From the IMG/VR virus record IMGVR_UViG_3300030451_000615, positions 1-23,679 of that record: a DNA stretch of 23,679 nt; one strand, given 5' to 3'. Each line of letters opens with the position of its first letter. Within the stretch, counting starts at the first letter, position 1. A model generated the notes under the pieces. That model saw only the letters and a program-made list of their open reading frames with translations, did not search any database and was not told where the DNA came from. Source of the stretch: a virus. The position numbers and the translations under genes are program-made. Shown piece by piece: positions 2,393-4,044 of the stretch.

Positions 2393-2521
2393 TTAACGTC
2401 TGTCGAGTGTGCCACGTGTGGCTTTTGCTGAGAATTTCCCAGGAACCTTTGCTTCGACTTTAGGTTCTTCTTTTACTTCTTCTTTGGTGTCTTCGGACAC
2501 TGATACTTCTGCTTCTGCCAT
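2393..2521 (-). CDS. Short hypothetical protein, 42 aa, Glu/Lys-rich
   Basis: An ATG at 2521 opens a frame that begins MAEAEVSVSEDTKEEVKEEP and ends GKFSAKATRGTLDRR before a TAA at 2393-2395. The N-terminal half is acidic and Pro/Glu/Lys-rich, so it is probably disordered; the C-terminal tail is basic. The first 49 bases overlap the 3' end of the upstream secreted-protein gene in a different frame. A weak purine-rich site (GGAAA) lies just before the ATG. The overlap and the gap of 18 bases to the next gene fit the compact layout here. It is too short to be sure, but without it this stretch would be an unusually long gap. No function can be given. Confidence 0.5.
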   Translation of the reverse strand: MAEAEVSVSEDTKEEVKEEPKVEAKVPGKFSAKATRGTLDRR

Positions 2522-3078
2522 AGTTTCCAGTTCTTTTTAATAGGTTTACATTCTTCTTTTAATTTCTTTTCAACAGCTTTTTCTACATCTTTTTCCCATT
2601 TAGCTATTGGTACAACATCACTACACATATGACCTAGATCAGAATTAGGAAGTAGCATAAATCCTTTCTGTTGCAGTTCTGCACACTTTAAGACTCTAAC
2701 TAATTCATAGTCTAATCTCATCTTTTCTTCTTGTCTAGCTGCTATACTACGACATCTTCTCAACCCTTCACGGTCTAAAGGTATCATAAAGTTAATTTGA
2801 CCTCCCCAGTTTTCAGCTACAGTATAGTTCTGTTGCTGCATACTTCCACCTTCAATATCATATGGAGTTGTATGGTTTCCCATATAGAAAGGGGAGAATG
2901 TCATTGTAGCTCCATTACAGCTGATATTAGGACCGTAATGCTGTCTAGACGGTGCTCCATTATTCTGGAATTGTACCGCCTGATTGGTTACATTACCTGT
3001 CGCAGCTGCAACTGGATTACTAACATTCCTATCTCCTTCAGCACGGACTGGAGCTATTGAGAGAAGACTGATAAGGAT
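2473..3078 (-). CDS. Probable secreted/periplasmic protein, about 200 aa, start uncertain
   Basis: The C-terminal 200 residues of this frame look like a genuine protein. A signal-like stretch (YYGILISLLSIAPVRA, then E-G) is followed by NPVAAATGNVTNQAVQFQNN, SRQHYGPNISCNGATMTFSP and a charged, helical C-terminus ending CPKTPKKK. Six Cys fit an exported protein. I recognise this pattern from marine phages, always as an uncharacterised protein. The frame stays open far upstream (to 3417), but that part is Arg/Ser-rich and is the out-of-frame shadow of the 123-aa gene at 3054-3425, so it is not accepted. No ATG, GTG or TTG lies near the signal peptide; the 3078 boundary is the AUC codon at the head of the hydrophobic core and is a guess. 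The true start may lie a few codons further upstream, because the preceding Arg-rich residues would make a good n-region. Confidence 0.65.
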   Translation of the reverse strand: MLISLLSIAPVRAEGDRNVSNPVAAATGNVTNQAVQFQNNGAPSRQHYGPNISCNGATMTFSPFYMGNHTTPYDIEGGSMQQQNYTVAENWGGQINFMIPLDREGLRRCRSIAARQEEKMRLDYELVRVLKCAELQQKGFMLLPNSDLGHMCSDVVPIAKWEKDVEKAVEKKLKEECKPIKKNWKLWQKQKYQCPKTPKKK

Positions 3079-3425
3079 ACCGTAGTAGAAGTAACGTCGA
3101 TTTCTCTGTCTATTACTTCGACTGATAGTACCTGACTGGCTGCTCTTTCTACTATTTCTAGTGAGAAAGGATCTCCAGCTGTATGTAGTGTGTATACCGA
3201 ATCTGAATCGGCTAAACCTCCTGATGAGGCTGATGTATGAGTGATGTTTTCCCCACTCCATTTGTTTAATGCAGACCCATAGGTTGTCGTAGTTATTTCT
3301 TCTACAATCTCTTGAGTCGTTGTCGTTGTACTGTTCATCGAACCCTGGGTGAAATTCGGGGTTACTAATTCTGCTCTTGCTACCGTGGGTGATGCCAGTA
3401 AGAAGAGTACTAGCCATTTCTTCAT
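3054..3425 (-). CDS. Exported hypothetical protein, 123 aa, Thr/Ser-rich
   Basis: The protein starts with a clear signal peptide: MKKWLVLFLLASPTVARA with a probable cleavage after A18 (ARA before E). The mature part begins ELVTPNFTQGSMNSTTTTTQ and is rich in Thr, Ser and Val, ending TTVSLSVFSQ, probably mostly beta-strand. No catalytic motif is visible. Its ATG overlaps the stop of the 93-aa membrane protein gene by four bases. Its 3' end overlaps the next secreted-protein frame by about 25 bases. I associate this pair of exported proteins with marine cyanophages, where both lack an assigned function. A role in the periplasm during late infection, or on the virion, is only inferred. Confidence 0.8.
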   Translation of the reverse strand: MKKWLVLFLLASPTVARAELVTPNFTQGSMNSTTTTTQEIVEEITTTTYGSALNKWSGENITHTSASSGGLADSDSVYTLHTAGDPFSLEIVERAASQVLSVEVIDREIDVTSTTVSLSVFSQ

Positions 3426-3703
3426 GTCTTTGGTTTTTCCTTTTTTCCGTTACCGTTACCAGTAGTTAAGCCGAATGTAGCTAAAGCCCCAGTAAAGATA
3501 CTGGCAGGGAAAGTTATATCACCACCTGGGCTTTTCTTAATCATTGGTATTTCTACATAGTTCAATGTAATAATAAAGCCACTCCATACCACAACACCAA
3601 GTCTAACAAATGTACCTAATATTTGTATTTGGTGTTCTTGGTCTTCTGCAGCATCTTTTAATTTTCCGAAGAATCCTTTTTCTTCTTTCGCTTTTGCTTC
3701 CAT
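3422..3703 (-). CDS. Membrane protein, 93 aa (holin candidate)
   Basis: The N-terminus is charged (MEAKAKEEKGFFGKLKDAAEDQEHQ). A hydrophobic segment follows at about residues 28-48 (ILGTFVRLGVVVWSGFIIT), then KKSPGGD and a second, weaker hydrophobic segment at 64-80 (FPASIFTGALATFGLTTG), with a basic tail KKEKPKT. Two short membrane spans, a small size and a charged C-terminus fit a holin. In T7 the holin gene (17.5) lies between the tail fibre and the small terminase, the same interval as here. The similarity is of shape and position, not of sequence, so the holin call is an inference. The gene overlaps its upstream neighbour by 46 bases and its downstream neighbour by four. Confidence 0.8.
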   Translation of the reverse strand: MEAKAKEEKGFFGKLKDAAEDQEHQIQILGTFVRLGVVVWSGFIITLNYVEIPMIKKSPGGDITFPASIFTGALATFGLTTGNGNGKKEKPKT

Positions 3704-4044
3704 TTATCAATCTTATCTTGTAGGAATTTCTGTAGTTTTTTCTTTATTTGATTAAAGAAAGGCGTAGCTAGAGTGGTAGTTGCTACAGCTGCTACAGCTG
3801 CATAGGTAGCAGTAGCTACTACTTCTGCAGTGGGTAGAGGTAACTGTATATCTAATACAGGTAACTGTACGCTAGGAGCAGTTGGTTGTTCTTCTTTAGC
3901 CTCTGCCTCTACCCCTTCAGGAGCCTCCAGATCACTTGGAGGGATCACCATAGGGGTATACCCAGGAATACGAGCTTCAGGCGGCTTAAACTCGACTTGC
4001 ATTGTAGGTAGAGACTTAGGAGTTTTAGGTATCCTTATTTGCAA
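3658..4044 (-). CDS. Proline-rich protein with one membrane segment and basic tail
   Basis: The first 70 residues are Pro-rich and probably extended (PEARIPGYTPMVIPPSDLE). An Ala/Thr/Val hydrophobic segment follows at about 73-97 (AEVVATATYAAVAAVATTT), and the tail is strongly basic (KKKLQKFLQDKIDKWKQKRKKKK), so it would sit on one side of a membrane with the Lys-rich end free. The start used is a TTG at 4044, overlapping the upstream gene by 20 bases. An ATG at residue 15 (position 4002) is the main alternative and would remove the overlap. No ribosome binding site decides between them. Similar proteins occur in marine phages without known function; a lysis or virion role is possible. Confidence 0.7.
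   Translation of the reverse strand: MQIRIPKTPKSLPTMQVEFKPPEARIPGYTPMVIPPSDLEAPEGVEAEAKEEQPTAPSVQLPVLDIQLPLPTAEVVATATYAAVAAVATTTLATPFFNQIKKKLQKFLQDKIDKWKQKRKKKKDSSEN

Follow-up and report, generated by a model that had tools for sequence, protein, structure and literature searches.

Genes and features of the locus

The window considered here is the whole of a 23,679-nt stretch of T7-like phage DNA (IMG/VR record IMGVR_UViG_3300030451_000615), and the two genes under study, A and B, lie on its minus strand. Gene A (3054..3425) encodes a predicted exported protein of 123 residues with the signal peptide MKKWLVLFLLASPTVARA, a conserved C-terminus (SVFSQ) and no cysteine, and it is related to phrog_650 and, weakly, to DUF6322. 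Gene B is read in the −1 frame (equivalently, +2) relative to A and ends with the stop codon at 2473. Its frame remains open well beyond 3120, being given in the list of open reading frames as far as the ATG at 3417, and contains two in-frame ATG codons, both within A. The more distal of these, ATG 3417, would give a long form of 314 residues (2473..3417) and is the more likely start in the subclade to which the window belongs; the other, ATG 3261, would give a short form of 262 residues (2473..3261) and is the inferred start of a sister subclade as well as a possible alternative in the window. ATG 3417 lies eight bases past the ATG of A, and approximately 98% of A (364 nt, 3054..3417) would then be read in two frames; if B starts at 3261, the dual-coded stretch is 208 nt.

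Alignment, hydropathy, and wobble diversity together delineate the signal region of B at 3040..3105 on the minus strand (RNRRYFYYGILISLLSIAPVRA), comprising the basic end of a leader, a hydrophobic core, and an AxA-type site, and this segment lies over the stretch of A in which synonymous diversity is low. An earlier reading, made from the letters alone and hereafter called the sequence-only reading, had already noticed the signal-like segment, and its description is borne out: basic residues precede the hydrophobic stretch and an AxA-type site follows it (RNRRYFYYGILISLLSIAPVRA and then EG), some 188 well-formed residues continue beyond that site in the frame ending at 2473, and the 123-residue gene covers the same bases in another frame, ending at 3054. 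Counted from 3261, the leader of B is basic (14 K/R and 1 D/E), with one hydrophobic segment and the AxA-type site after it; counted from 3417, an unusual 108 residues precede the signal segment. Mature B (2476..3039; ~188 residues; phrog_848 and phrog_1755) has a C-terminal domain with four cysteines that are invariant in the alignment and a long predicted helix. From their sequences, both A and B look exported.

Immediately upstream is a gene for a 93-residue protein with two hydrophobic segments, a member of DUF6450 (3422..3703, minus strand). That gene is in turn overlapped by another at 3658–4044, encoding 128 residues of phrog_9426 and listed among the open reading frames with a TTG start. 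The pair is therefore bordered by the DUF6450 gene on one side and, on the other, by a small gene and then the terminase small subunit, a neighborhood that resembles the lysis-gene area of T7.

Sequence searches of solved structures yielded no match for A or B. The structure model of A is of moderate quality (pLDDT 76) and contains long predicted beta strands, two of them of more than 20 residues; its comparisons with the PDB were weak, with none significant (best E 0.016), and involved phage tail or collar parts and the beta stems of pore-forming proteins. The model of B is poor (pLDDT 61), and none of the 127 solved chains aligned with it scored above Z 3.9. Against the BFVD, significant matches to the two models were mainly cyanophage relatives.

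Distribution among cyanophages

Matches to B were found by tblastn in 394 phage records, far above chance and nearly all from cyanophages of the T7-like and T4-like groups; at the same cut-off, A was matched in 25 phage records. Scans of IMG/VR yielded 320 loci. For the close relatives of the window, the codon column at 3261 was read in 79 loci, and 77 unique sequences were used for synonymous resampling. These relatives were split by sequence into a main subclade, to which the window belongs, and a sister subclade, and a tree was built from the non-overlapping part of B, on which the 25 sister-subclade loci that were placed form a single clade.

Stop avoidance in the frame of B

The sequence-only reading had found no ATG, GTG, or TTG near the signal peptide of B. 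This holds for the ~52 codons upstream of the arginine at 3105, and it fails for the frame as a whole, since ATG 3261 lies 52 codons upstream of that arginine and ATG 3417 farther still; the lack of any in-frame NTG that would mark a gene with a non-AUG start or a frameshift is thus not found here. Alignment with relatives, which the same reading had proposed as the way to find the start codon, revealed ATG in 67 and GTG in 12 of the 79 loci at the position equivalent to 3261, with no B-frame stop from there to the end of A. This start falls on the tryptophan of a WSG motif in A, and both ATGs of the window lie at Lys-Trp; because Lys-Trp (AAA or AAG followed by TGG) necessarily yields ATG or GTG in the B frame, conservation of the column counts for little by itself. 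In seven loci with a residue other than lysine before that tryptophan, the codon is still ATG.

The case for B, as read from these sequences, is carried by stop avoidance rather than by the start column. When the overlap codons of A were replaced at random by synonymous ones, following the codon usage of the window (300 simulations), 562 B-frame stops were expected in the overlap across the 77 unique sequences, the lowest simulation giving 508, and none was seen. The same resampling predicted 479 stops in the third frame, where 581 were observed, and this abundance makes the avoidance specific to the B frame. At the level of individual codons, T is never used at the wobble position of A before codons beginning AA, AG, or GA (0/1011; hereafter stop-risk codons), as opposed to 35% in the other codons of the overlap. 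A gene starting at the signal peptide would not need an open frame ahead of it, and the absence of stops there points to translation of the B frame already ahead of the signal peptide.

Constraint on synonymous positions is graded across the overlap. In A, four-fold wobble diversity stands at 0.535 from the end of the signal peptide to 3261 and then declines to 0.447, 0.375, and, in the last 23 codons, 0.207; the non-overlapping part of B, serving as the control, has a diversity of 0.555. Between 3417 and 3261, beyond the signal peptide of A, the residues of B are therefore under no visible constraint (0.535 versus 0.555). Diversity is lowest over the signal region of B, so the residues of B matter mainly in this basic and hydrophobic region, and farther upstream the B frame seems only to need to remain open. 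The codons for A's own signal peptide (3375–3420) also have low diversity (0.197) in both subclades, including sequences whose B frame is not open there, perhaps through some influence of the initiation region. Selection is evident in both frames, as expected for same-strand dual coding: B shows stop avoidance and signal-region constraint, and A is conserved as a protein. The dual coding raised by the sequence-only reading is accordingly real, and at 208 or 364 nt it is larger than proposed, extending well beyond the signal peptide to which it had been limited.

Choice between the two ATG codons

On the comparative evidence, ATG 3417 is favoured as the start of B in the window's phage and ATG 3261 as that of the sister subclade. 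Every one of the 48 main-subclade sequences whose 5′ end could be read, that of the window among them, carries ATG 3417, although several relatives in the sister subclade retain it despite a B-frame stop after it, so conservation of this codon alone is not decisive. More telling is the stretch between 3417 and 3261, where T is absent from the wobble position of stop-risk codons throughout the main subclade (0/337, versus 22% elsewhere) even though these same positions do vary among A, C, and G. In the sister subclade, 12 of 27 loci have B-frame stops in this stretch. The three sister-subclade loci that lack ATG 3417 through the substitution of KKL for KKW (L030, L075, and L078) all have stops upstream of 3261. 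The tree tells the same story: changes into T on main-subclade branches number 5 of 63 at sites that are mostly stop-risk versus 108 of 391 elsewhere, and on sister-subclade branches 12 of 32 versus 60 of 169, that is, no avoidance.

It is possible, though the less probable choice, that B starts at ATG 3261 in the window's phage too, the frame being open to 3417 by ancestry or some other cause; this would be a variant of the same explanation, with a canonical ATG and an overlap of 208 nt. In the sister subclade, this position is the likely start of B, with stops lying farther upstream and a GGAG-like motif ahead of it, and the deposited annotation of P-SSP10 begins at its equivalent. Against this choice, the motif is missing from the window's subclade, where no convincing Shine-Dalgarno match precedes either ATG, and the window's subclade shows a stop avoidance at otherwise variable positions that the sister subclade lacks. 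Shine-Dalgarno-like scores were also obtained in two T4-like clades; apart from the GGAG-like motif of the sister subclade, the scoring was otherwise uninformative.

Overlaps of other lengths in other clades

The overlap of A and B differs in length among cyanophage clades. For example, it is 64 nt in S-H38-like phages and 166 nt in S-RIM50-like phages, both with ATG as the start of B, and 112 or 67 nt in P-SSP7-like phages, which use GTG, ATG, or TTG, with 349 nt in a few of these. The tabulated cases in which A occupies this frame all have B starting on a tryptophan codon of A, for an NTG codon in the B frame requires an A codon beginning with TG and, in the window, A has no cysteine. Stops are freely present upstream of the B start in these other clades; within the overlap, the count of zero stops is partly by construction, the overlap having been taken as the open frame, and the informative part is that start sites are shared within a clade and have stops just upstream of them. 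In S-H38-like phages, wobble T is as common upstream of the start at stop-risk codons (551/1233) as elsewhere (2512/5268), so that the ATG marks where avoidance begins.

A few of these loci are of interest for other reasons. One contig of the S-H38 set (L150) has a B-like gene with no recognizable A upstream. Upstream of A, T4-like cyanophages carry a member of phrog_564 (L090:684–1190 and L091:650–1102), and the A protein of S-RIM50 itself matches phrog_564 weakly (E 6.6e-05); judging from these profiles, the phrog_564 gene may be a paralogue of A.

Alternative explanations

What the aligned sequences show directly is a frame that stays open, start codons that are conserved, avoidance of stops, and constraint on the signal region. 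These features argue, with a probability that we put at about 0.88, that B is a gene with a canonical start that shares its strand with A and overlaps it in the −1 frame, starting most likely at ATG 3417 and less likely at ATG 3261. The sequence-only reading had instead offered three other accounts. One of these was initiation at a non-AUG codon (AUC, AUU, or AUA) near the signal peptide, and it is true that most of the clade has no NTG in the ~50 codons that precede the signal segment and that the window has an ATC at 3126; inspection of ~85 aligned loci disclosed no conserved column of near-cognate codons there, and such a start leaves the stop avoidance farther upstream unexplained, making this account highly improbable. 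A −1 frameshift producing an A–B fusion would suit the frame relationship and the overlap of the two genes. It is nevertheless very unlikely, for no slippery heptamer was seen by inspection of the same ~85 aligned loci, stop avoidance in the S-H38-like clade begins sharply at a conserved ATG, and the signal peptide of A would, in a fusion, presumably misorient the second hydrophobic segment of B for export.

Finally, a sequencing error or a pseudogene in the window's contig deserves almost no credence, as dozens of contigs and isolates of independent origin share the arrangement; these include relatives with 95% identity over the best segment of this protein, as well as numerous more remote ones. 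An ordinary ATG near the signal peptide, which the sequence-only reading had said would count against its proposal if seen in homologues, is present in other clades, namely in P-SSP3 and the S-H38-like phages. Unusual translation initiation for B is therefore not supported.

Annotation and protein families

The overlap has been hidden because deposited annotations truncate B or leave out A. In P-SSP10 (AGG54701.1), B is annotated from the equivalent of 3261, and in 9515-10a (ADP00046.1) and P-SSP6 (AGF91576.1) from the equivalent of 3417; NATL1A-7 (ADP00132.1) likewise has a long B call, and A is annotated in none of these four. The record of NATL2A-133 does include A, with B truncated to an internal start. 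These inconsistencies involve five loci of close isolates (L081, L082, L083, L333, and L334), and the Gp165 or hypothetical proteins of P-SSP10, 9515-10a, P-SSP6, and NATL1A-7 are the same gene B.

Profile searches match the mature domain of B to both phrog_848 (E 3.5e-59) and phrog_1755 (E 3.8e-57), and essentially the whole of A (residues 3–123) to phrog_650 (E 2.3e-32). In the B protein of S-RIM50, the phrog_848 match begins at residue 1 and the phrog_1755 match at residue 73, phrog_848 covering the overlapping leader and phrog_1755 beginning after it, and the two would appear to be one B family split by inconsistent start calls. Against Pfam DUF6322, A scores 19.2 bits, below the curated cut-off of 30.6, which is exceeded by its T4-like homologues (58.5 and 145.4 bits). 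Neither protein had a match in NCBIfam, and the PHROG, Pfam, and NCBIfam searches returned no family of known function for either. We found no published account of the A–B overlap, and neither A nor B was identifiable in the virion-proteome text consulted.

Relationship to known overlapping genes

Same-strand overlapping genes are already known as a kind. By our reading of published definitions (PMC3887535), A and B form a phase-2 unidirectional overlap in which the downstream start has moved upstream; 87% of phase-2 overlaps were short in that survey of prokaryotes, and at 208–364 nt the A–B overlap is unusual by comparison. A likeness is also seen in the two-component spanins (Rz/Rz1) of overlapped type, which are also encoded by two overlapping, same-strand genes for envelope proteins, with a small membrane-protein gene adjoining and the terminase small subunit near. 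A and B share the overlapped or embedded architecture, which also occurs in pairs that are not spanins. The defining feature of the outer-membrane subunit, a lipobox cysteine, is found in neither: A lacks cysteine altogether and looks cleaved, and B has no cysteine at the end of its signal segment and hence no lipobox. The pair is for this reason not classed as a two-component spanin.

Gene callers are biased against overlapping spanin genes, leading to missed genes or mis-called starts, and 20 phages of Prochlorococcus and Synechococcus are among those without identifiable spanins (PMC6139136). It is tempting, if decidedly speculative, to suggest that A, B, and the DUF6450 neighbor might constitute an envelope-disrupting lysis module of marine cyanophages that has been missed through uncallable overlapping starts, the start of B having moved stepwise upstream through the tryptophan codons of A until A became nearly all dual-coded.

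Biological significance

Taken as a whole, the comparative sequence evidence indicates that A–B is a real, conserved pair of overlapping genes with canonical starts. Both proteins would be produced, and the long basic N-terminal leader of B would run into the hydrophobic segment, which would send the four-cysteine C-terminal domain across the inner membrane, with the leader probably cleaved between APVRA and EG. The frame from the tryptophan start to the signal segment has to stay free of stops, and the codon choice of A is shaped by that need.

What had been supposed to be an oddity of translation thus becomes a clean case of dual coding that is common to T7-like and T4-like cyanophages, and stop avoidance proved to be a sensitive means of locating the likely start. 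A widespread cyanophage gene pair has evidently been annotated inconsistently, with B truncated or A omitted, and one PHROG family has seemingly been split as well. Finally, the clade-specific lengths of the overlap, from 64 to 364 nt, may allow its growth to be traced stepwise.
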